The position numbers were made by a program, and so were the translations under genes. The notes below the pieces were generated by a model that saw only the letters and a program-made list of their open reading frames with translations, searched no databases and was not told the origin of the DNA. A DNA stretch of 20,820 nt, from positions 1-20,820 of IMG/VR virus record IMGVR_UViG_3300030329_005900, one strand, 5' to 3'. This document shows, in pieces, positions 1 through 14,099 of this stretch (its first letter is position 1; each line of letters starts with the position of its first letter). Source of the DNA: a virus.

Positions 1-311
1 TGGAAGGACAGCTTAGTATCTCCAGCCAGCACAAGTTCATCAGCCGATTCGTCCCATAGCATATACTGGCCTGATGTAGCGCCAAAAAACTTTACGTCAT
101 GGCCGGTATCGTCTACTCCCACAGTCAATGTGTTGGTATGAGTGGCAGCCCCAGACCAGCTATGGGCTCCCGTCCATGCGTAAGCGTCCGTTAAATCAAT
201 ATGATCTGCCGTAGCAGTAGATATGGCATTAATAACACTGTTGAACTCTGCATTGAGATCGGCAGCCGTGAGCGTTTCGTTGGAAACCCAGGTTTTCGTA
301 CGGGAGACCAT
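1..311 (-). CDS. Tail fibre-like protein, N-terminal part (cut by window edge)
   Basis: This is the beginning of a gene that runs off the left edge; about 103 residues are visible. The start is the ATG at 309-311, with AGGAAG about six bases upstream (318-323), which supports it. The protein begins MVSRTKTWVSNETLTAADLN, an opening common to appendage proteins of marine and environmental phages. Further on it carries the motif DTGHDVKFFGATSGQYMLWD (about residues 68-87), a beta-structured repeat often found in phage tail fibres and other virion appendages. Its place at the end of the structural operon fits a tail fibre or tailspike that attaches to the adaptor and nozzle complex. The receptor-binding end is outside the window, so specificity cannot be judged. 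The identification rests on motif recognition, not on a search. Confidence 0.82.
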   Translation of the reverse strand, partial: MVSRTKTWVSNETLTAADLNAEFNSVINAISTATADHIDLTDAYAWTGAHSWSGAATHTNTLTVGVDDTGHDVKFFGATSGQYMLWDESADELVLAGDTKLSF

Positions 312-365: not shown

Positions 366-2531
366 TTAATCTATATCCCCAGATGTAACTTTTTTGCTGG
401 GGGGCTTCCCCTTGATGGGCAGAGCCTTCCCCTCTCCGTTCGTATTCGCGCCGAAGAGAGCGGGACCAATTTTTTTGTCTGCAAAACTGACGACTCTGTC
501 CTTCAGTGCCCCCAATGACCCAAGTATGTCTGGACGCCTTGCTTCTACCGAAAGACTATCGGCTTCAACCCCACCCCGCTCTCTCATTTCATCTACCCGG
601 CCGAGCATTTGCCCCAGGGTCATATTCTGTGTGTTTACCCCCATTTCCTGCAGCTTTCTTGCCGTATGTGCTACCGCATCCTGAAATTTCTTTATCTGCC
701 CCTCGTTCCACCCTATAAAAGACAGCACACGGCCTGCGCTTTTTGGCACGACTGCAGCCGCAGTAAAGGCGGCGATCGGCAACGCAGCGACCAACGGTAA
801 TCCATATGCGGCTGCGCCCCCCACTCCGACTACGGCACCAGCTCGGACGAGCTGCATAAACTCACGCCTCCCAACTATCGAATTCGGCTGAAGCTCTGTG
901 AAGCCCATCCCTGATGCCCTGGACCGGATGTTTAGGTTCGGCAGCAGTTCATCCAGGGTGTCTATGGCTTCCATTAGATCGGGGCGCGTTGGGCCCGCGT
1001 CGAAAGCCTGCTCCAGCCTTCTTGCTTGGTCAAACTCATTAACCTCTCGCAGAGATAGGCCCCAATCACTCCTCCCCAAACGATCAGATAACATCTTCTG
1101 TATCTCTCTAAAATCGGCTATAGGACGTATGGCCTCATTGTAGGTTACGGTAACGGTGGGAGCGCCTGCAATCCTCGTTTCTTGCCCTGGCATACGCTGT
1201 ACCCTATCCGATAAAACTTTGACTTCGGGGGCCTGCAGGAGGCTCCTTACAGCCCCGCTCTCGACTGTAACGGGGCCAAGAAGAGCCCTAACCTGTGCCC
1301 TGATATTTTTTATTACCCTTGCCGCCTTTGGGGTGCGGCCTGCAGTAGGAATATTGTCTAATCCCATTTTAATCTCGTCCAAATCACGAACGGAAATTCT
1401 GTCTGAGGAGTTTAGGATATCCTCTACTGCGGTGGCGAATGCACCTTTGTCTCCCTCTGTAAATGACGCCGGAGCACGGATCTCGATCCGGCCCGGAGAA
1501 GTTGGGGAATCGGGCAGGCGTTCGGCGCTTATCCTCATTTCTCCGAGCGGCCCTTCGGGGAGCATCAACTCGCGCTTAAGGGCAGATATATCAACCGTTA
1601 AATTTTGTTCGTCCGCAGCTTCCAGAAAAGCGCCTTTAATCTCTCCAAATGATTTTCGCCTTGCATCCAGTTCGACCGCCACATCTGCGCCAAGCGAAGC
1701 CGGTGTTGTCTCTGCCCTAAGTGATTGTCTAAAATCTTTTCCCTCACCAGCCCTGCCAGCCCTGCCAGCCTCCGCTGCCCTCGGGCCACCGACCCCTGAA
1801 GTAAGGCCAGTTATTTGTTCGACCGCAGAACGGCCGCCCTTGGCCGCTTTACGCAGGCCCCTCCCAGTAAATTCTGCACCCTTAGTTATAGCATGGACTG
1901 GATCTAACATTCTGGCAGCCGCCGCAGCTTTACTGGCGCTTGATCCTGGGACCGGGGCCGCAAGGAGGGAGGGGCCAAATAGCGGGTCCTTAGCAAACTC
2001 ATCCGGGTCGGTTATTTTTTTACCAGCAACATCCATAACCTGCCGAAATTCCTCTTGATCCGGGGATGTGGTTTTTTGAACAGGAAACGAAATCGCATCA
2101 CCGAAGTCAGATAGGCCGCCCAATCCCATTCGGGCAAGCGACGTAAGCATTTCCCCGCTTTCTCTTGTAGGATAGGCCACATTTTTGGCAAATGTGCCAA
2201 GCCCAGATAGGGCTTCAAGGATCGAGTTCATCGGGTCCAAGCGGGCTCTGCCCTCTTCGCTTTTCAACGTCTCTACGATAGCCCCCGGGAAGCCCTCCTG
2301 AATCCCCAAATCTTTCAGGGAAGGACGTCCTGCCCCTTCGGGATAATAGGCACTCTTTAGGTCATCTGACGTTTTGTATGACGTGTCGGCGTCCGCAGAA
2401 GCGCCGCCGCCCTTTTCGCGCAACTCGGCCAGCGTACGCTCCCTCGTACGGATGTACGTATCCAGTTCTTCTTCCGTCATGTCGCGAAGTAGGGCTTCGC
2501 GTTCTTCCCTTAAAGGATTCGCATCAGCCAT
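366..2531 (-). CDS. Large putative internal virion or DNA-ejection protein (721 aa)
   Basis: This 721-residue protein of unknown exact function sits between the 546-residue protein and the tail fibre. Its ATG overlaps the stop of the preceding gene by one base (TAATG at 2529-2533), so translation is probably coupled. The N-terminus is charged and helical (LREEREALLRDMTEEELDTY). The middle (about residues 290-450) is rich in helix-forming residues and resembles helical repeats seen in other phage virion proteins. Near residues 564-595 there is one long hydrophobic alanine/glycine/valine stretch containing GVGGAAAYGLPLVAALPIAA. It is followed by an amphipathic helix and a basic C-terminus. In short-tailed phages the proteins encoded here are often carried inside the head and ejected to form a channel for DNA. 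That role is inferred from position, size and the hydrophobic segment. No enzymatic motif such as a lysozyme or transglycosylase site was seen. Confidence 0.78.
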   Translation of the reverse strand: MADANPLREEREALLRDMTEEELDTYIRTRERTLAELREKGGGASADADTSYKTSDDLKSAYYPEGAGRPSLKDLGIQEGFPGAIVETLKSEEGRARLDPMNSILEALSGLGTFAKNVAYPTRESGEMLTSLARMGLGGLSDFGDAISFPVQKTTSPDQEEFRQVMDVAGKKITDPDEFAKDPLFGPSLLAAPVPGSSASKAAAAARMLDPVHAITKGAEFTGRGLRKAAKGGRSAVEQITGLTSGVGGPRAAEAGRAGRAGEGKDFRQSLRAETTPASLGADVAVELDARRKSFGEIKGAFLEAADEQNLTVDISALKRELMLPEGPLGEMRISAERLPDSPTSPGRIEIRAPASFTEGDKGAFATAVEDILNSSDRISVRDLDEIKMGLDNIPTAGRTPKAARVIKNIRAQVRALLGPVTVESGAVRSLLQAPEVKVLSDRVQRMPGQETRIAGAPTVTVTYNEAIRPIADFREIQKMLSDRLGRSDWGLSLREVNEFDQARRLEQAFDAGPTRPDLMEAIDTLDELLPNLNIRSRASGMGFTELQPNSIVGRREFMQLVRAGAVVGVGGAAAYGLPLVAALPIAAFTAAAVVPKSAGRVLSFIGWNEGQIKKFQDAVAHTARKLQEMGVNTQNMTLGQMLGRVDEMRERGGVEADSLSVEARRPDILGSLGALKDRVVSFADKKIGPALFGANTNGEGKALPIKGKPPSKKVTSGDID

Positions 2532-4165
2532 TACTCATCTCCCTGCTCCTGCTCCTGCTTTTCCTTTCTTCGAGCTTCGAAGAGCAGACGGTCAAGTTCC
2601 AAGGCCCTTTCCACTCTATCAGTATTTTCGGCCCCGTTCACTTTATCAGGATTTCCCCCATCAATCGTGGGTTCTACGGCCCCCCACGGATCTTTAGATG
2701 CTTTCAAAAGGCCAACCTGAAGACCGCGCAGGCTGTAATCCAACGTTTTCAGCTGTTCGGTAAGAATCTCTGGCCCCGATATTAGGCCGCTAACGAACTC
2801 GGTCTGAAATCTCACGAATTCAGTGTGGGGGGCCGCAGCGCCGGTAAAGGTTCTGAGTAACAGCTCTCGGGTAAAGCCAAGTTCAGTCATGACCGACTTG
2901 ACTTCTGGGTCAAGTGTTCTCCCCAGCGTCCCTTTAAAAAGAGACGCGGCCTTGAGGTGGTCTATATTCGCTTTAAGAAACTCAAGATGCTCCGCAAATG
3001 CTGGATCGCTTATCCTTTTAACGATGCGGGATATTCCAGAGCGCAAGGCGACCATACGGCCAAAACTTCTTCTGGCCTCGTCCCTGAGTTCAACATCTTG
3101 TTCTGACATCTCAAAGTTCGCGGCTACCCGTTCGCCAACTTCTTGCGAGATGGGAATTCCGAGAACTGCCACTTGGGTTTGGAAGCTATCCAAGAGCCCT
3201 TCTGGGGATACTTTAGATTTATTTTTTGATACTTCGCTTAGTATTTCACTCAGCTTTTCCCGCTGTGCGACTTGAATTTTATCATGAGCATCCGTGACGT
3301 AGGCTGCATATTGCGGCATGTGAAAATTAATCTCTTCAGGACTAAGATTAGGAAAGGCATTTCTTATTGCCTCTTTCACCCTATCTTGATCCAACATATC
3401 ATAGGGGCTATCATACAATTTTGTGGCCAAGGGGCTAAGGGTTCTCTCTATATCTGAGCTGATCCCGTATTCGTATTCTGGACCGCCTCCGGCATCTTCC
3501 ATCTCAGCCCGGGCTTTTAGTCGAGCGGTATCTCGATCAAATCTTTGCCCCCGTGCTTCTTCCAAAGACATCTCGTTTGTAAATCGAGACTGCTCTCCAG
3601 CCGCTTCTGCCTCTCGTCCCTCACGAATCGCCCTTGCACCGCCTCCAAGACCCCGGGCCAATGTGGCCAGTATTCCAGACTTGGGCCTTCGTGGGGATAC
3701 AGAAGCCGTCTGTCGTCCTCGCAGGGTGTTAATCAGGTTGGCCCGGGCCTGAGCCTGTGCGGTGGCTTTGTTGGCCTTCCCGATTGCCCGGCTGTCCATA
3801 ATAGACCCGCCGACATTGCCAAGCAGCTCCAGAATTCGCAGGGGCGTCTGCCTGCCAACTTGTTCCGGGGCCTCTGGCAGCGGGCTAAGGCCGGAATATT
3901 GGTCCCGCCGGTCCTCTGCTCTTTTAAGCTCTTCCGCCTCTATCGATTTGCCGGGCACCCCGAGCGAAAGAGCATCCCCACCTGCGCTTATATCACTGGG
4001 AACCCGGTTCCTACTGGCGTCTTCCCTGGCGTCAACAATCGCAATGGCCTCTTCTTCGGACATTCCCTGAGCGACCAGTTCTGTAATTGCGTCGAGGCGG
4101 GTCTTTTCTCTTTTGCTCGCTGGAGAAGCACTGATTGGATAATTTGATGTCGATGGTCCCAACAT
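2531..4165 (-). CDS. Putative internal virion protein with GAAAP motif (about 544 aa)
   Basis: This is a helical, charged protein of unknown exact role. The reading frame can be extended to a TTG at 4171, but the ATG at 4163-4165 is the better start because AGGAA lies seven bases before it, whereas that site is too close to the TTG. Near the N-terminus is a short helical segment, LDAITELVAQGMSEEEAIAI, that resembles a UBA-like three-helix pattern, but this is weak. Close to the C-terminus, LLRTFTGAAAPHTEFVRF matches a GAAAP-type motif that I associate with phage ejection or internal virion proteins. The last 20 residues are strongly charged (RRKEKQEQEQGDE). It overlaps the next gene by one base. 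Position and composition suggest a minor virion protein ejected with the genome; this is inference. Confidence 0.77.
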   Translation of the reverse strand: MLGPSTSNYPISASPASKREKTRLDAITELVAQGMSEEEAIAIVDAREDASRNRVPSDISAGGDALSLGVPGKSIEAEELKRAEDRRDQYSGLSPLPEAPEQVGRQTPLRILELLGNVGGSIMDSRAIGKANKATAQAQARANLINTLRGRQTASVSPRRPKSGILATLARGLGGGARAIREGREAEAAGEQSRFTNEMSLEEARGQRFDRDTARLKARAEMEDAGGGPEYEYGISSDIERTLSPLATKLYDSPYDMLDQDRVKEAIRNAFPNLSPEEINFHMPQYAAYVTDAHDKIQVAQREKLSEILSEVSKNKSKVSPEGLLDSFQTQVAVLGIPISQEVGERVAANFEMSEQDVELRDEARRSFGRMVALRSGISRIVKRISDPAFAEHLEFLKANIDHLKAASLFKGTLGRTLDPEVKSVMTELGFTRELLLRTFTGAAAPHTEFVRFQTEFVSGLISGPEILTEQLKTLDYSLRGLQVGLLKASKDPWGAVEPTIDGGNPDKVNGAENTDRVERALELDRLLFEARRKEKQEQEQGDE

Positions 4166-4232
4166 AGCCAAGTTCCTGTAAAAACCTTAAGGGCGAGGGG
4201 TAATTGTCCTACGAAGGATGTATAATATTTGC

Positions 4233-4568
4233 TCACAGAGGAGGCGTATAAGGGGGGACTTTCCGAGCAGGCTGCTTGCCTGGCTTTTCTTCTTCTTCGC
4301 CGGTCAGTCCTCCCAGTTTCTGGGACAGAAGATCGCGTACAAGGGGGTCTCTCATAATAGTCTGGAGCGGAGAGGGCACTGACTGCTGGCTTTCCCGTGG
4401 CGGGCTTTGAATTGCAGGCTTGTCCGACAACTTGCTGATGAGCTGTCTCATGGCCTCTGCTCGATTTTGCTTTTCTTCCATTTGCTTCTGCGCCCTGCCG
4501 CCAAGATATCGGTCGGCCATCGATAGGCCGACGCTGGCAGCTATTTGGGCTAAAGTGGGAATTGGCAT
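4233..4568 (-). CDS. Small virion-associated hypothetical protein (111 aa)
   Basis: The ATG at 4566-4568 directly follows the TAA of the 1160-residue gene (TAAATG), so it is probably translated by ribosomes finishing that gene. The first 20 residues are mildly hydrophobic (MPIPTLAQIAASVGLSMADR). A helical charged stretch follows, then a proline/glutamine linker, then a tail EEEEKPGKQPARKVPPYTPP. I do not recognise the family. Small proteins of this kind between large ejection-type proteins are common in podovirus late operons and are often minor internal components, which is the likeliest role here. A gap of 67 bases without a clear terminator separates it from the next gene. A 198-residue frame overlapping on the same strand (3988-4584) is considered a shadow. 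Confidence 0.7.
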   Translation of the reverse strand: MPIPTLAQIAASVGLSMADRYLGGRAQKQMEEKQNRAEAMRQLISKLSDKPAIQSPPRESQQSVPSPLQTIMRDPLVRDLLSQKLGGLTGEEEEKPGKQPARKVPPYTPPL

Positions 4569-7500
4569 TTAAATTCGCTCCCATTTGTTATTTTCCAGAC
4601 TCCATCTGGCGATTAATCTTCCGTCTACATTATAAAACTTCCCATCATCTATATAATAACTGCCATGTCCCAGAATTTCGGGGTTTTCGGCTGCAAAGTG
4701 CTCTATGGCCCGGTTGAGATTCTCGTCGTTTCCTCCGATTACTTTGCCATCGTGACTAATCTGAATTTTTTGATTCGTGGGCCCACCTTCAATCTCTGGA
4801 ATGTCAGCATCTGATCCTGATCCAGTTCCACCAGAAGTCCCGCCCTCATCGTCTACTCTAAACGGGTCAATGCCAAACGCATCTCTCCACTGGACTTGTG
4901 TTGCTTCATCCCAGCCACTGGTTTCAAGTATACTTCTTGCCAGCTTTGATCTGGTAGCCCCTGCCCCAAGTTCAAGATCTGGATCAAGAATCGCAGTTAT
5001 CGCGGCAATCACGTCCAGATCTGCCTGCCGTCCTCCAAGGGTTTTATCGCCAGTTACTGTGCGTCCAATTAACTCGGCAATAGCCTGCTCATTGCCTGCC
5101 GCAACACCAGCCAAATCTACGCCTCTGCCAAGACCGGTTTCTCTGTCGGCCCTGGCCCTCTCTGCGGCCCTGCTAAGGATGTCATACTCTGCTCTCGTGG
5201 CCCCTTCAGACAGGTCAACCATCCGATCTATGGCGTCCCCTGAACTGAGGGCACCAAATCTCTGCAGCTGGGCAATTCTTCGAGCTTCTTCTTCTCCCGT
5301 TTCTTTCCTCAGATCTGACAAAAGTGCTGCCGTAATGGGATCTCCACGAAGAGTCCCCTCTGGGGCCTTATATATAGGATCATCTTCACCAAACTCATCC
5401 TTCCTGAGCAATAGATCCTTATCGTATTCTCCAACGGCCATAGGATCAGTTTCAGCAAGATCCATTAAGATTTTCTGCAATTTTTGGATTTGGGAAGTCG
5501 CATCTGTTCCCGTTACACCCTCGCCTGCGGCACCTCCAGTACCTCCAGTACCTCCAGTACCTGCGGTAGCTTTGCCTGCCTGAGAGGTAAGCCCCAACCC
5601 GGCTAAAATGGCCTCCTGCCCTGGCAGATCCAGATCGGCAACACCAATGTCAGGGAACAGTCCAAGTAAATTCTCCATTGCTCCTGGGCCCCTCAAGCCC
5701 ATTTCTGTCAAAATACCTTCCAGCCCAGGGAGGCCGAGGTCGCCAGCGCCAATGTCAGGGAACAGTCCAAGTAGCTGCTCCTGAGTAAAGTCATCAGGAG
5801 GAGTGATGTCCGTCAGCATCTTTTCAACGCCTTTGGCCCTTGTTCCAATATCATCGATCAACGCGGACAGCCCACCTAATTCTGGCGTTTCGACATTGCC
5901 AAGCAGCTTAGAAATACTTTCTGCTTGACTAAGAGGTGTGGAAAAGTCAGGAACAAGACCCGACATTTCCTTGCCAAGCTGATCGATTTGGGCTCGGCCC
6001 CTATCGAGAATCGGAGGCTTCAACGCGCTCAAGAGCTGTTCAAGCTCAGTCAATTGCGTTTTGCCTCGGCCGAGCACATCGGGTCCTGCAAATTGATCAA
6101 CTCGGTCCGATAGGGCCTCCAGCTGCCCGGTCCCTCTTTGAAGTATATCTGGGCCCCTAAAGGCAGTCACTAAATCTTTCAATTGGCCTAACTCCCCTAC
6201 GCCTTCTCGAAGAAGATCCGGCCCCTGAAATTGGGAAACCCGATTCGCAAGTTCCTCAAGTTGAGCCGTGCCCCTATTAAGGATATCATGACCGGCAAAC
6301 CTATTCGACAAATCCACTAAGTTTTCCAACTTAGCCAGCTGGTCTTCGGTTGGAATGAAGTCCTCAAATTCAAACGCGCCCGGCTGTCGAAGCCCAAGCT
6401 CATCTGTAAGATCTTCTGCGGTTGGAAGGAAGTCCCCAGCCTCCCACGCATCCGGCCTTCGCATCCCGAGCTGCTGTTCAAACTGCGACCCGGCCGGAAG
6501 GAAGTCCCCAGCCTCCCAAGCATCCGGCCTCCGCATCCTGAGCTGCTGTTCAAACTGCGATCCGCTCGGAAGGAAGTCCCCAACCCCAAAAGCATCCGGC
6601 CTTCGCATCCCGAGCTGCTGTTCAAACTGCGATCCGCTCGGAAGGAACTTATCAACCCCCCACGCATCCGGCCTCCGCATCCTGAGCGCATCTGCAAACT
6701 CTTGATCGCTCGGGAGGAAATCATCAACGCTAACGCCTTCGCCCAATCCTTGAATTAGCCCCTGCGCACCTCTGATCTGGTCCAAAATGCCCTGTAGCCC
6801 TTCGGGCTGGGGGCCTTGTCCGAGGCCGCGTATTCGATCTTGGGCCCCACCGATCAAAGCTTGGATCTCCTCAAGCCCCTTCGGCATATCAACGCCGAGT
6901 CTGCCGATCCTGCCCTCCATATTGCCAATTTGTTCGCCCAGAGCTTCAAGCTGTTGTCGGCCGGGGTCCAGAAATGAAGGCTTGGTTTCGTCAACCATTT
7001 TACGCAATTGGTCCAGCTGGGCCCCACCTCCCCTTTCGCCTCCTATAAGATCCAGGCCAAAATTCCCTCGGCGGGCCAAGTCTTCCTGAAGGCGATCAAG
7101 CTGCGCCATTCCTTGCCCGGCAAGATCTGGAATTTCAAGCCCAGCGACCCTGTCATATAAGCTGTCGGGACCCCGGGCCGCCAAAAGAGCATTGATCCTG
7201 TCCAGCTCGCCCCCTGCACCGAAAGATCCTTCCCTCAATGCCTCCAATGCCCCTCCCGTTTCAGTTAAGGCATTGAAACCACGAATAAACTCTTGTCCCG
7301 TTCCAAGATCGCCTAAGAAGTCTGAGCTAAATCCCAGCGACGGAACCGTGTCCACGAGCGCCTGCGCTTGGTCAAGATTGCTTTGAAAAGTCGGACTGAA
7401 TTCAGTTTGACCTATAGGGGGAAGCCTCTGGCCGCCTGGATCGCCGGGAGTTCCGTAGCCCAAGGTGGAATCATAAGCGCCCAAGCCAGAATCCAAGCCA

Positions 7501-8051
7501 GAATCCATCGCAGGGCCAAGGGTTCCATAGGCTCCATAGGCTCCATAACCGCTTGAGCTCAAGCCAGCGGGGCGGTTGGGCCAATACTGATAGATAGGGT
7601 GACTTTCGATCCAAGAACCTAATCCATCCCTGGGGTCAGGGGCACCAGCACCCATTGTTTTATAATAACTGGTTTCATGTGCACCAGCCTGATCATAAGG
7701 CCCGGGATATCTTGTCTTCCATTGTTCAGCGGTCAACATGGGAGCATATTTATTATATGCACCCATATAATTTGTATAATCATCGTAAGTGGTTCCGAAG
7801 AATTCAGGTCTATAGTCTGCAGCCAGATCCCCCTGACGCTCTTCGCCCCATCCAGTAATGTTGATGCCCGCCCGATCTCGGCGGTTTCTTTGCGCGGCAC
7901 GCTCCGCATCTAAGGCTTGTTGTTTTTTGCGCCGTTGGTCCTCCTGAAATCCCGCTGCATAGTCTTGGGCTTGGCTCTTCTGCGCATTGCGACTTTGATT
8001 AGTATATAAATCCCCTGCGCCCGTGCTAAATGACCCTTTTGTCCAAGACAT
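4569..8051 (-). CDS. Giant repeat-containing virion protein (1160 aa)
   Basis: This is the largest gene in the window, with an ATG overlapping the nozzle gene's stop (TAATG at 8049-8053). The N-terminal 70 residues are rich in glutamine, arginine and lysine (FQEDQRRKKQQALDAERAAQ). Next comes a glycine/tyrosine-rich stretch with GYGAYGAYG. The central part is modular: units resembling LDxGRxQLEAL, then about five 24-residue repeats with core FLPSGSQFEQQLGMRRPDA, then about five 23-residue repeats with core GPDILxRGxxQLEEL, then two 35-residue repeats starting LLGLFPDIG. A Gly/Thr linker (TGGTGGTGG) separates this from a C-terminal part of about 330 residues that is less repetitive. I recognise no enzyme domain. 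Position suggests an internal, ejection or tail-associated structural protein. A classical tape measure is unlikely because no long-tail genes are present. Confidence 0.82.
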   Translation of the reverse strand: MSWTKGSFSTGAGDLYTNQSRNAQKSQAQDYAAGFQEDQRRKKQQALDAERAAQRNRRDRAGINITGWGEERQGDLAADYRPEFFGTTYDDYTNYMGAYNKYAPMLTAEQWKTRYPGPYDQAGAHETSYYKTMGAGAPDPRDGLGSWIESHPIYQYWPNRPAGLSSSGYGAYGAYGTLGPAMDSGLDSGLGAYDSTLGYGTPGDPGGQRLPPIGQTEFSPTFQSNLDQAQALVDTVPSLGFSSDFLGDLGTGQEFIRGFNALTETGGALEALREGSFGAGGELDRINALLAARGPDSLYDRVAGLEIPDLAGQGMAQLDRLQEDLARRGNFGLDLIGGERGGGAQLDQLRKMVDETKPSFLDPGRQQLEALGEQIGNMEGRIGRLGVDMPKGLEEIQALIGGAQDRIRGLGQGPQPEGLQGILDQIRGAQGLIQGLGEGVSVDDFLPSDQEFADALRMRRPDAWGVDKFLPSGSQFEQQLGMRRPDAFGVGDFLPSGSQFEQQLRMRRPDAWEAGDFLPAGSQFEQQLGMRRPDAWEAGDFLPTAEDLTDELGLRQPGAFEFEDFIPTEDQLAKLENLVDLSNRFAGHDILNRGTAQLEELANRVSQFQGPDLLREGVGELGQLKDLVTAFRGPDILQRGTGQLEALSDRVDQFAGPDVLGRGKTQLTELEQLLSALKPPILDRGRAQIDQLGKEMSGLVPDFSTPLSQAESISKLLGNVETPELGGLSALIDDIGTRAKGVEKMLTDITPPDDFTQEQLLGLFPDIGAGDLGLPGLEGILTEMGLRGPGAMENLLGLFPDIGVADLDLPGQEAILAGLGLTSQAGKATAGTGGTGGTGGAAGEGVTGTDATSQIQKLQKILMDLAETDPMAVGEYDKDLLLRKDEFGEDDPIYKAPEGTLRGDPITAALLSDLRKETGEEEARRIAQLQRFGALSSGDAIDRMVDLSEGATRAEYDILSRAAERARADRETGLGRGVDLAGVAAGNEQAIAELIGRTVTGDKTLGGRQADLDVIAAITAILDPDLELGAGATRSKLARSILETSGWDEATQVQWRDAFGIDPFRVDDEGGTSGGTGSGSDADIPEIEGGPTNQKIQISHDGKVIGGNDENLNRAIEHFAAENPEILGHGSYYIDDGKFYNVDGRLIARWSLENNKWERI
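5644..5773 (-). repeat. Direct repeat pair encoding 35-residue units (LLGLFPDIG)
   Basis: A 25-base stretch beginning CCAATGTCAGGGAACAGTCC on the plus strand is present identically at 5644-5668 and 5749-5773, a spacing of 105 bases (35 codons). The two encoded units share LLGLFPDIG, then DLxLPG and a glycine-rich turn. They lie C-terminal to the other repeat families of the 1160-residue protein and point to an internal duplication. Confidence 0.8.
5960..6330 (-). repeat. About five degenerate 23-codon repeats (GPDxLxRG)
   Basis: The translated units follow the pattern (V/L)xxFxGPDxLxRGxxQLxxL, with period 23 residues in three successive copies and 22-24 in the flanking ones. The DNA has diverged much more than in the neighbouring 24-codon array, so this array looks older. 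The pattern suggests alternating amphipathic helices and short turns. Related single units (LDPGRQQLEAL) occur earlier in the same protein. Confidence 0.75.
6343..6730 (-). repeat. 72-bp in-frame tandem repeats, about five copies
   Basis: The marker GCATCCGGCC (plus strand) recurs at 6448, 6520, 6592 and 6664, exactly 72 bases apart, with a further diverged unit on the left side. Each unit encodes 24 residues with core DFLPSGSQFEQQL and MRRPDAW. The inner copies are nearly identical at DNA level and the outer ones more diverged, as expected if copy number changes by recombination or slippage without breaking the frame. Confidence 0.88.
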
Positions 8052-9595
8052 TACTCCACTCCTGCCTGTCGTTTACGTTTATATCCAATAGGGGTGTAGA
8101 CGAGGTGGGTTCGGCGAATACGAAAGAATTGACCGAGTGTGCTATTGGAAAACTTTAAACTCGTATGAGGATCATACTCAACCAATTCGGTGTCCTGAGA
8201 TAACATGCGAACAGCCCCCAGGATTCCGCTATCTGTCTTATCGGAATCAAGTGCAAACCCACCATTGGTCTGCAAAACTTCGCTGGTCCCAGTAACCCCA
8301 GAGGATTCCTGATCTACCTGCACTTTGTAATTTCCTAATGAATCATAGTACGTCCTTGCATATCGCCAGCGAACCCTACGTGCAGAGCTATCCGGTGCAG
8401 GGGCAGCGGTGCGAAAGTAATGCTCGATAGGTGTGCCGTCTGAAGAATTGTCGTCATCGACATAAACAGTGGACGGGTCGTGATCTTCCAGTTTGCCGCC
8501 AATGCTTCCAGAATCGTTGTATGTTCCAGCGTGAGGCTTTTTGTCGATCAGGGCAGAGCAATTACGATCGAAATAATCTCCGGTACCCGTATAAGGGCCA
8601 AACCATTTCTCATGCCGGTCAGAGTAAATCATAATCTCTGAATTTCTGTCATCACTATCTTTTGGCAGCCAAAACCATGTTTCAGACCGGGCGGGATAGG
8701 GGCAAGCATGGGAGTAAGGCAGTCTTGTAGTGTTTACATTAGGCCAATATCCCAAATCCAGGCTATGGGAAATCTTTTCGGCAGCTTCGCCTCCGTCCCA
8801 CAAATAGATGCCATCATTGCGAGGAAAGATTTGGTCGTCGTTTGGCAGGCTTATAATGCTTCTGCCCGAAACCGATGCCCGAGAGGTCATCTGAACTTGC
8901 TGGTATGGGATGTCCACGTTCCCTGTAGGTCTTAGGGTGTGGATTCCGTCCTTGCAGTGAACGGCCAAAAAGTCCTTCGATGCCTTAAGCCCAGTAATTG
9001 CAGAACCAAAATTCCTGAAAGACGTAGAACCTATGGTGTCGTGACTTCCCGTGTCCGTATACCATACTCTGTCATAAGTAGTATCGGCGTTGCCGTACCA
9101 TACGCGGTTGTCCCAGAAGGCTATGTGCTCAGCGTCGGAAAAGCGACTGCTTATCCCGGCAGCGGCAGCGTTACCCGTGCCAGTCCACTTAAACGGAACA
9201 TCCTCACCGTTTATTGCATAGATGGTGCCGTTGGCATCGCACCACTCAAAGGTATGATCATCGCCAGCCGTCAACGTAAGACTGCCCTTAATGCTGCTCC
9301 ATCCAGAACTGTATTTATAAAGCTCAGCACCAGCAGCAATTACAACATGATCTGTATTTGGGTTAGCCGTAAATTGGGCGCATAATGTCAGGGTAGGATT
9401 GCCAGAGATGGCACTCTGGGCCTTATAGCTTGCTGTTCCGGTGCGAGTTTCGGCTGCGCCAGCGGCAGATATATGGACGTTATCCATAGAAGCTATCTCT
9501 GTAGAGAGCATGTCCTCGGCCGGGAGGTCATATCGAACGCCTCCGTCCTCCCCCCACGGCCCCATCTGAATATCTTCCGCTTCGCGGATAGCCAT
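8051..9595 (-). CDS. Tail nozzle or hub protein (beta-propeller-like, 514 aa)
   Basis: This protein probably forms the tail nozzle below the adaptor ring, like P22 gp10 or the tubular tail protein B group. Short beta strands with repeated aromatic and glycine turns run throughout (FKWTGTG, IAFWDNRVWYGNAD, DGIYLWDGG). Phrases such as FGSAITGLKASKDFLAVHCK and DGIHTLRPTG match the pattern of phage nozzle proteins in which a propeller blade reads 'GITGLxxFxDxLxVFxxDGIxxL'. Its place directly after the adaptor supports the assignment. The ATG overlaps the adaptor stop by one base (TAATG at 9593-9597), with no strong ribosome-binding site, which points to translational coupling. The family was recognised by pattern, without a search. 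Confidence 0.78.
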   Translation of the reverse strand: MAIREAEDIQMGPWGEDGGVRYDLPAEDMLSTEIASMDNVHISAAGAAETRTGTASYKAQSAISGNPTLTLCAQFTANPNTDHVVIAAGAELYKYSSGWSSIKGSLTLTAGDDHTFEWCDANGTIYAINGEDVPFKWTGTGNAAAAGISSRFSDAEHIAFWDNRVWYGNADTTYDRVWYTDTGSHDTIGSTSFRNFGSAITGLKASKDFLAVHCKDGIHTLRPTGNVDIPYQQVQMTSRASVSGRSIISLPNDDQIFPRNDGIYLWDGGEAAEKISHSLDLGYWPNVNTTRLPYSHACPYPARSETWFWLPKDSDDRNSEIMIYSDRHEKWFGPYTGTGDYFDRNCSALIDKKPHAGTYNDSGSIGGKLEDHDPSTVYVDDDNSSDGTPIEHYFRTAAPAPDSSARRVRWRYARTYYDSLGNYKVQVDQESSGVTGTSEVLQTNGGFALDSDKTDSGILGAVRMLSQDTELVEYDPHTSLKFSNSTLGQFFRIRRTHLVYTPIGYKRKRQAGVE

Positions 9596-10506
9596 TATGC
9601 GCTCAGGCTGCCTTCCTGAACGAAGAACTCAAAACCTTCGGGGCCAACATTCTCGTCACCCTTTCTTCTCCATGTTCGATTGCCCCAGACTCTCAGGTTG
9701 GTTTTTAGGCCAACGTCGATTATAGCATCATACTCACTCCGATTATCTCCTGCCCCTTCAGAATCTCCCTTCTCCTGCATATAGAGTTCAGCCGCTCCGA
9801 AATACAAGGCGGGCTGGAGAAGTTGGGGCATGTAGATGTCTAAATCGTCGTCATCGTTAGCGTCGGTCCAATCAGGGATATACGACAAATACCTGTAGCG
9901 AATAGTCTCGTTGGTTGTATTATGCAGAGGGAACATTGCCACAGTAATATATCCAGTCCCTGCAGCAAGGCCCTCGACGGTTACAACCTCGGCATTCCCG
10001 GTGTTATCTCGATCCGGGTCCCGGGCATCGAGATAATCCCACCCCTTAAACAAAATCGAGCAGCCGTTAGTCTCGTCAGTAAACGAGTATGGCACCTGCA
10101 CATCGGAGGCGAGCTGGTACTGGCGGGTCACGGCGTCGGATACCGTTAAGGCCGTCGCCCCGCCGCTTTCTGACAGGGCACCACTGAAATCACCGGTCGT
10201 AGTGGGCGAGTGGTAGAAAACCAGGGTTGGCGCATTGGTCGCATCGTAAGACGCGGCCACAGTGCCAGTCTTAGTGCCATCGCTGATGGTGTTGCCCGCA
10301 GTGATGGTGCCGGAGATAGATGTAACCGTAAGGGTATGCGTGGTAGTCAGAGTTGCGGTTTTATGAAGCCACCACCACTCGGCTCTGCCGACAATACGAT
10401 TGGCAATAGTATTAAGATAATTTCTCGCCTGTGTTTTATAGTCGGTATTAGTGATGGACATCCCGGTGCGCCGCAGGGTCATATCAATGGCGTCGGATAG
10501 CTTCAT
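9595..10506 (-). CDS. Head-tail adaptor (neck) protein with inserted beta domain (303 aa)
   Basis: This is likely the ring protein that docks on the portal and connects it to the nozzle, like P22 gp4, T7 gp11 or the SU10-type adaptors. The first 50 residues (MKLSDAIDMTLRRTG, ARNYLNTIANRIVG, EWWWLHKTATL) show the typical helical start of this family. The second half (YLDARDPDRDN, DLDIYMPQLLQPALYFGAAE) also fits. Between about residues 57 and 125 a threonine/serine/glycine-rich beta segment (GTITAGNTISDGTKTGTVAA) interrupts the expected order; it looks like an inserted domain. The ATG is preceded by GGAG seven bases upstream, overlapping the end of the 79-residue gene. The C-terminus overlaps the nozzle gene by one base. 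Confidence 0.78.
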   Translation of the reverse strand: MKLSDAIDMTLRRTGMSITNTDYKTQARNYLNTIANRIVGRAEWWWLHKTATLTTTHTLTVTSISGTITAGNTISDGTKTGTVAASYDATNAPTLVFYHSPTTTGDFSGALSESGGATALTVSDAVTRQYQLASDVQVPYSFTDETNGCSILFKGWDYLDARDPDRDNTGNAEVVTVEGLAAGTGYITVAMFPLHNTTNETIRYRYLSYIPDWTDANDDDDLDIYMPQLLQPALYFGAAELYMQEKGDSEGAGDNRSEYDAIIDVGLKTNLRVWGNRTWRRKGDENVGPEGFEFFVQEGSLSA

Positions 10507-10508
10507 CG

Positions 10509-10748
10509 CTATGCTCCAAGGTTAACCCAAGAACTATCCTGGTATCCCTGGATAGTAGAAGTGGTGCTATTATAGATTATCATACCGTGGGCTGCGGTCA
10601 GGGCGTCTCTCTGCGTTGTTGTCATAGTCGGAACAGTTAAAGTCCCCGTGGTTCCATTTAAATCGAGGCTATTCGCCTCGACGTGCCCAAATAGACCCAC
10701 TTCACCGTAGAATGCAGCCGCCTTAAGTTGTCTATTTGGCTGCGCCAA
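10509..10748 (-). CDS. Small fibre-tip-like protein (79 aa, TTG start)
   Basis: The frame opens with TTG at 10746-10748, two bases after the upstream stop codon; no good ribosome-binding site or ATG alternative is seen, so re-initiation after the upstream gene is likely. The C-terminal half (TMTTTQRDALTAAHGMIIYN, followed by GYQDSSWVNLGA) matches a motif common at the ends of phage and bacterial tail fibre or surface proteins, where it forms a small beta structure before the tip. Here it is a stand-alone gene between a hypothetical protein and the adaptor, not the end of a long fibre. It may be a capsid or neck whisker, or a small head fibre. The exact start is uncertain. Confidence 0.7.
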   Translation of the reverse strand: MAQPNRQLKAAAFYGEVGLFGHVEANSLDLNGTTGTLTVPTMTTTQRDALTAAHGMIIYNSTTSTIQGYQDSSWVNLGA

Positions 10749-13230: not shown

Positions 13231-13250
13231 CCTCTTCTATAATGCTATGC
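13231..13250 (-). promoter_or_regulatory. Possible phage-RNA-polymerase-like promoter before the capsid gene
   Basis: Read on the minus strand, this stretch contains GCATTATAGAAGAGG. It differs by one base from the core CACTATAGAAGNG of SP6-type promoters. It sits immediately before the most highly needed gene. No single-subunit RNA polymerase is visible in the window, the upstream part of the SP6 consensus is missing, and the stretch includes the scaffold stop codon and the capsid ribosome-binding site, so the match may be chance. Confidence 0.25.
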
Positions 13251-14099
13251 AGATGGCCCGAATCCGAGACTCTGCATAGCGGCTGAAAGTTCACTGTCAT
13301 TGATTGCCGCGCCATCGGCAGCAGCTATCACATTCGCAGGCCGTTGCACATTGGGTTGGCGTCGGGCCTTTTGGTCTTGCTGGTCCAGTTGTTTGGATTC
13401 AGCAGCGGCCAGTCCGGTTAGCGTCCTATAAGCCTCCGCCCGAGTATATCGTTGTCCGGTAGCGGGGTTTTCGACACCCATAAGGGCGTCTGTCTGGGGC
13501 TTAAACCGGTCGATATCAGGATACTGTTGTCGAAGGTCATCTGCTTCAGCTTGAGCTTGCTGTCCCATCTGGCTCAGGTTCATTTTAACAAGACGATGAA
13601 TAATCTGAGTCATCTGGTCGAACTTCTTGGACGTCTCTTCACGAAACTGTCCGTTACGGGCCTGATCGATCTGATCGATCACGTCTATCGCTCGGGACTC
13701 CTCCTCGTTCAGTCGAGACCTAAGATCACTCAGCGGATCTGAGTTCTGAGGTTGTTCGCCTTTTGCAAGAAGGTCTACTCGTTCATTGAGACGTTGCTCC
13801 AACTGATCGAGGCGGGCTGTCCGTTCATTGGCGGCCTGTGCATCGGCTTGCCGTTTGCGGGTATAGTCTGCCTGCAGTTGCTTGGCCAGCGATTGATGCT
13901 CTTCAGGAAGAGTTGAGGGATCGAGTGTATCCAGGTCGATCTCTTGTGTCGGACTGGGTCCATTTTCCGGGGCCGAGGGTTCCTCTGGAGAGTCTACCGA
14001 TCCATCGGTTTCAATCAGGTCAGCGGCCAGATCAAAACCATCGGGGGCAGCTACGTCGGCATCAGCTTGTCCGTCTTGGCTATCCAGTACTTCACTCAT
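13245..14099 (-). CDS. Capsid scaffolding protein (284 aa)
   Basis: Scaffolding proteins guide capsid assembly and leave or are degraded before DNA packaging. The first 65 residues are very acidic (DGFDLAADLIETDGSVDSPE). Then comes LPEEHQSLAKQLQADYTRKR, the signature 'LPEE...LQxDYTRK' pattern of podovirus scaffolds. A long glutamine- and arginine-rich coiled coil follows (RTARLDQLEQRLNERVDLLA). The C-terminal helix probably contacts the capsid protein. The ATG has AGGAGA six to seven bases upstream, overlapping the stop codon of the zinc ribbon gene. No protease gene lies next to it, so how the scaffold is removed is not shown. Confidence 0.85.
   Translation of the reverse strand: MSEVLDSQDGQADADVAAPDGFDLAADLIETDGSVDSPEEPSAPENGPSPTQEIDLDTLDPSTLPEEHQSLAKQLQADYTRKRQADAQAANERTARLDQLEQRLNERVDLLAKGEQPQNSDPLSDLRSRLNEEESRAIDVIDQIDQARNGQFREETSKKFDQMTQIIHRLVKMNLSQMGQQAQAEADDLRQQYPDIDRFKPQTDALMGVENPATGQRYTRAEAYRTLTGLAAAESKQLDQQDQKARRQPNVQRPANVIAAADGAAINDSELSAAMQSLGFGPSA

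Follow-up and report, generated by a model that had tools for sequence, protein, structure and literature searches.

A repeat-bearing protein of 1160 residues, P0001, is encoded by a 20,820-base virus contig (the window, meaning the whole of this stretch of DNA), and it represents a real family of probable virion proteins that is nameless in the libraries tried and that varies in an unusual way. P0001 shows both traits of this unnamed L084-L135 family, namely a C-terminal module and a gene adjacent to that of the tail nozzle, and tandem repeats are themselves a family trait. With a probability of roughly 0.5, P0001 serves as a structural component of a short-tailed phage's DNA-ejection module, combining a C-terminal anchor with a repeat-built spacer of variable length; its location in the virion, its ejection and the importance of spacer length are all things that we infer.

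The gene layout of the window is that of a short-tailed phage. Read on the minus strand, the genes run in the order terminase, portal, presumed scaffold, capsid, adaptor-like, nozzle-like, P0001, three genes of 111, 546 and 721 aa, and the start of a fibre-like gene, with the scaffold and fibre labels assigned from position and appearance. From the adaptor onward, these are:

9595..10506, minus strand: adaptor-like gene (PF24175 SU10_adaptor, E 1.7e-4, under the curated cut-off)
8051..9595, minus strand: nozzle-like tail protein gene (phrog_3287, E 1.9e-10; the label "nozzle" comes from position)
4569..8051, minus strand: P0001 gene, 1160 aa with repeats (ORF and translation), starting where the nozzle gene ends
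4233..4568, minus strand: small gene of 111 aa, in position and size like gp14-type ejection proteins
2531..4171, minus strand: gene of 546 aa, presumed ejection protein, without cysteine
366..2531, minus strand: gene of 721 aa, presumed ejection protein, without cysteine
3..311, minus strand: start of a fibre-like gene, truncated by the contig end (ORF open at the window edge)

The nozzle-like protein is 36-71% identical in 20/20 loci compared, and the closest cultured capsids, which are Mx8-like, share about 26-28% identity with the window capsid. The adaptor gene is longer in two relatives (L008:7925-9055 and L107:2932-4062), at 376 aa as opposed to 303, and a tandem repeat lies within it (score 103). 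The P0001 gene lies within the block between the nozzle and the fibre/spike genes, as in ejection-protein blocks, and the trio downstream of it is laid out small-medium-large, like an ejection-protein cluster and, specifically, like the gp14/gp15/gp16 operon as described in section 4 of PMC8954989. Homologues of the 111-aa gene occur in L086, L092, L093 and L094 (E 9e-5 to 2e-3); weak matches link the 546-aa gene to the same-slot gene of L084 (local, E 0.004) and the 721-aa gene to the same-slot gene of L091 (E 0.002), and neither of these two larger neighbours had a relative in the viral contigs searched. In L093, the second gene downstream of the family gene (741 aa; 6920-9145, minus strand) matches phrog_873 (endolysin, head and packaging) at E 5.6e-10; its counterpart in the window, the 546-aa gene, had no match of this kind. 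Finally, the N-terminus of the ORF at 3..311 is similar, by eye, to the relatives' last late gene, the presumed fibre, and two presumed fibre ORFs of relatives also carry tandem arrays (L098:6246-8216, score 294; L097:11269-14355, score 203).

An ungapped self-comparison of P0001 identified three arrays of differing period within residues 442-821, judged against a shuffle maximum of 53 (40 shuffles) and a cut-off of 60:

6735..6884, minus strand: weak 26-aa pair, residues 390-439, score 59 (above the shuffle maximum, below the cut-off)
6336..6728, minus strand: 24-aa (72-bp) array, residues 442-572, about 5.5 copies, score 379
6012..6335, minus strand: 23-aa (69-bp) array, residues 573-680, about 4.7 copies, score 164
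5589..5831, minus strand: 35-aa repeat, residues 741-821, about 2.3 copies, score 110

These scores bear out the first-pass annotation, which had described 24-, 23- and 35-residue repeats side by side in the 1160-residue protein, although the span that it gave, 5644-6730, covers the 24- and 23-aa arrays and stops short of including the whole 35-aa repeat, whose end is lost. With Tandem Repeats Finder, only the 72-bp array (row 6424-6728) and some short ones were reported. The inner 72-bp copies had been called nearly identical, which overstates the case: inner copies 2-4 share 83-90% DNA identity, the outer ones 59-76% and a sixth in-register unit 37-45%, and at the protein level the inner copies are 75-87% identical to one another. 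The 69-bp array had been called much more diverged, a contrast that is real but smaller than claimed, its first four units being 40-62% identical in DNA and the fifth in-register unit being no recognisable copy. The two aligned units of the 35-aa repeat are 60% identical in DNA, and differences between adjacent repeat units are mostly amino-acid-changing.

On either side of the arrays, three segments can be delimited:

7647..8018, minus strand: N-terminal segment, residues 12-135, 36% identical to the L095 N-terminus (E 5e-18)
4959..5351, minus strand: conserved C-terminal helical module, residues 901-1031
4572..4766, minus strand: C-terminal alpha/beta tail, residues 1096-1160, with predicted strands and helix (pLDDT mostly 58-84)

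The helical module matches L084, L085 and L086 by BLAST at E 3e-14 to 2e-16, and the C-terminal tail was recognised in two relatives, L087 and L129, whose tails both went into building the profile. AlphaFold2 modelled the whole of P0001 at a mean pLDDT of 47.9; the C-terminal piece modelled alone reached 68.7, with up to 90 in the helical hairpin. When this piece was compared with the PDB by Foldseek and VIA-align, only generic helical bundles were returned and no solved fold stood out, the best matches having a Foldseek E of 2.0 and a Z of 8.1, which is below the level meaningful for helical models. As for the repeats, the 23-aa array was modelled as helices, mostly at pLDDT 50-70, and the 24-aa array at pLDDT 26-38, without a confident fold. 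Of the "fibrous or helical virion part" that had been suggested, "helical" is consequently apt for the 23-aa array, "fibrous" finds no support, and "virion part" is supported by gene position and composition only.

The family itself comprises genes of uncultured phages. A profile of the C-terminal module matched 39 uncultured viral loci and gave no match in bacterial genome contigs. Relatives have also been reached through the nozzle gene: in 13 stretches downstream of nozzle matches, the first ORF after the match encodes a long protein in 13/13 cases (three of these ORFs are read from a stretch edge, and two, in L095 and L096, end at the contig end), and arrays are present in 12/12 of those scanned, L086 having been scanned via its duplicate L100. 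In 14/14 loci checked, the nozzle match ends and the family gene begins within 0-8 bases of it, and at 60% identity the family collapses to seventeen clusters. Two BFVD entries, A0A1B1IR09 (1256 aa) and A0A516LE70 (866 aa), are also members of the P0001 family, with 32-34% identity over about 178 C-terminal alignment columns and a Foldseek probability of 1.00; neither has a name or function in the tables consulted. No relative of P0001 was found in Pfam, PHROG, NCBIfam or the PDB sequences (PDB hits were taken as chance, or there were none), nor among cultured phages, where L091 and part of L132 likewise had none; its own peptides found no relative in the viral contigs searched, and no paper on such a family was found in the open-licence literature. 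The earlier remark that no matching family came to mind stands for Pfam, PHROGs, NCBIfam and PDB sequences, but an unnamed family does exist in uncultured phages. A match of L084 to two records of one Corynebacterium phage covered only 6% of the query and was taken as chance, and Pfam and PHROG hits within the relatives' repeats were scattered over unrelated families and not used. Two further loci are worth recording. The family gene of L101 (L101:3707-7452) is broken up into ORFs of 827 and 416 aa by either a natural or a sequencing frameshift, and the 51-kb G002 (the L050 contig) has two nozzle genes (9124-10611 and 43774-45258) with a family gene after each, perhaps representing a chimeric assembly or two phages.

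Tandem arrays have been found in 31/34 distinct complete family ORFs (at least 250 aa), as opposed to 19/399 other ORFs of the same loci; five of these 19 are derived from family genes, being antisense shadows or a fragment. Counting all scanned members, 46/49 carry an array, the exceptions being L097, L098 and L101 (the last two partial), and arrays are kept in 16/17 clusters with top periods ranging from 11 to 58 aa. In cluster-to-cluster matching, the strongest array of each cluster was matched in 21/256 pairs versus 221/256 for the C-terminal module. The 24-aa array of P0001 resembles that of L113 at about 31-32% identity (E 8.5e-12 and 2.2e-13 in the two directions), a likeness that rests on equal period and a two-way match, since BLAST on repeats inflates significance; profiles of the two 24-aa repeats score each other weakly (E 0.004-0.006), far below the array-versus-protein blastp. 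Because the inner P0001 copies are 75-87% identical to one another and only some 31-32% identical to L113, the 24-aa unit type appears to be older than the split between the two, and its copies would have been homogenised or re-expanded since. The nozzle proteins of the P0001 and L113 phages are 58% identical, so the shared unit tracks nozzle relatedness, and a simple story of repeat swapping has been toned down accordingly. A weak match joins the 35-aa repeat of P0001 to an array of L105 (E 8e-4), an expected match between P0001 and the L095 repeat of 27 aa was not supported (L095 ends at the contig end, and other arrays may lie further on), and a profile of the L084/L085 23-aa repeat had no match to P0001.

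Change in length by whole units is clearly seen in one pair of close relatives. L084 and L085 are 95.4% identical in protein and 94.1% in DNA, and L085 differs by exactly two additional 23-aa units and one fewer 10-aa unit, plus small indels near the N-terminus. The extra L085 units share 72% and 81% DNA identity with their nearest neighbour unit and are therefore not fresh duplicates; the difference may reflect losses in L084. Likewise, L109 and L113 (79.9% identical) differ in length mainly within the 24-aa region. The protein had been predicted to be length-variable, and in its relatives this is what is found: copy number differs between them, and the constancy across all relatives that would have spoken against the prediction is not observed. 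Among the phages and viral contigs searched, no relative was close enough for a unit-by-unit comparison with the window's own arrays.

In composition, the family is acidic (pI 4.05-4.90) and nearly devoid of cysteine, with two cysteines in 44,941 residues (46 distinct sequences), both at residues 2 and 5 of L089, an ORF read from the stretch edge (contig-edge extension). The neighbours g2-g4 also have none (23 sequences), compared with 0.59% in other ORFs. Cysteine counts are zero for T7 gp15 and gp16 and for P22 gp7, gp20 and gp16, and one for T7 gp14; cysteine is equally absent from scaffolds and P22 gp26, and fibre-like genes have little. The absence of cysteine is consistent with ejection proteins and is no proof. 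The presumed scaffolds (window 13245-14099 and relatives) lack cysteine in 38/38 ORFs. One clade has proline- and glycine-rich repeats; runs of 7-13 prolines occur in L087, L088, L117, L121, L126, L132 and others of that clade, beside proline-rich repeats of the N-terminal half.

In T7 and P22, most genes lying between that of the nozzle and that of the fibre or spike encode internal, ejection, needle or morphogenesis proteins. P0001 resembles T7 gp14-gp16 and P22 gp7, gp20 and gp16 in being encoded in the post-nozzle block, in being large and helical or disordered, and in lacking cysteine, as most of them do. According to section 4 of PMC8954989, length differs widely among gp15- and gp16-like proteins (gp15-like ones span 431-982 aa), and ejection-protein groups are often equated by synteny alone. 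Unlike the T7 and P22 ejection proteins, P0001 is encoded ahead of the trio-like genes and outside them; since those three downstream genes seem to make up the canonical trio, P0001 would be a fourth, non-canonical component. A tandem-repeat middle with unit-wise length change characterises the P0001 family and is not described for ejection proteins in the sections of PMC8954989 consulted.

Profile comparisons with known ejection proteins were all non-significant and were counted against the ejection reading: searching 40 proteins, known ejection proteins among them, with the module profile (hmmsearch) gave a best E of 0.06 and no homology, and hhalign of the core with T7 gp15 gave a probability of 0.09%. 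Among distant cultured relatives, the slot corresponding to that of P0001 is occupied by phrog_6121 proteins (Mx8 p54, MW202489 14492-15403, BUCT555, ppBjS10J-1), which measure 282-451 aa versus 1160 aa for P0001. In MW202489, BUCT555 and ppBjS10J-1, this phrog_6121 "virion structural protein" follows the nozzle gene and an acetyltransferase gene; after it come, in BUCT555, one gene with a match to endolysin/transglycosylase families and one with a match to "DNA ejection protein" families, and in MW202489 two genes that have no PHROG match. Membership of the P0001 module in phrog_6121 was not supported, with profile-profile probabilities of 0.2-0.3% and no PHROG hit for P0001. It had been expected because two phrog_6121 proteins took the top two places among 16 in one scan, but the order changed among 40, none being significant.

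Counted in favour of an ejection protein are the gene order, the nozzle adjacency, the BUCT555 slot, the phrog_873 match in L093, the absence of cysteine, the 39 loci, the arrays and their unit-wise change. Counted against it, P22 has its tail needle gene in this slot, and scaffolds and P22 gp26 are also cysteine-free. P22-type tail needles are trimeric coiled-coil rods. P0001 could close the nozzle or project from it, as a tail plug, a needle or a central tail fibre with a reach set by the repeats. P22 gene 26 directly follows gene 10, as P0001 follows its nozzle gene, gp26 likewise lacks cysteine, and in cultured phages the matching slot sometimes holds phrog_6121 structural proteins with a peptidase S74 (fibre-type) annotation. 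P22 gp26 differs in having 233 aa, and the best profile hit on it is non-significant (E 3.2). We regard a needle or fibre as unlikely: the model of P0001 shows no long rigid rod in the repeat region, where the 24-aa array is of low confidence (a monomer prediction being a poor test of a trimeric fibre), the proline/glycine-rich repeats and proline runs of one clade are unlike a coiled-coil needle, and a separate fibre-like gene lies further downstream.

The slot can also be read by analogy with T7, where gene 13 sits between gene 12 and gene 14, and P0001 shares its acidity and lack of cysteine with the presumed scaffolds of this group; an assembly factor of scaffold or core type, active in building the particle and no working part of the finished virion, would fit both facts. 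T7 gp13, at 138 aa with three cysteines, is annotated as an internal virion protein, and the size and repeats of P0001 have no parallel in it, which makes this explanation very unlikely. A different doubt concerns the repeats themselves, as P0001 might be an ordinary virion protein whose repeats arise by slippage or recombination and are tolerated in a disordered linker where their number is irrelevant. The difference in repeat types between clusters, the low model confidence of the 24-aa array and the mostly amino-acid-changing differences between adjacent units all suit such a neutral linker, whereas the retention of arrays in nearly every cluster, their rarity in other ORFs of the same loci and the 24-aa motif still recognisable between P0001 and L113 argue against it, and we consider it unlikely.

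If P0001 is an ejection-module protein, the C-terminal helical hairpin (residues about 901-1031) would be the part that functions as an anchor, docking with partners in the virion or in ejection such as the portal, tail or ejection complex, and the N-terminal part, above all the middle (about 330-830), would be a flexible-to-helical spacer made of tandem repeats. Whole units may be gained or lost by unequal recombination or slippage, such that spacer length would drift or be tuned in each lineage while the ends remain fixed, and the protein would exit the virion together with the other ejection proteins. A bolder version, in which the ejected protein acts as a DNA-delivery "ruler" whose spacer changes unit by unit, with the repeat type replaced over longer times, and so tunes reach or valency to the host envelope, seems quite unlikely.

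The C-terminal signature of the family could be used to name, in uncultured phages, a gene for which the libraries tried offer no label. L084 and L085 form a natural pair for asking whether length matters. Finally, the family suggests a concrete source for the length variation of ejection proteins, namely that entire repeat units are added or removed while the two ends stay fixed.
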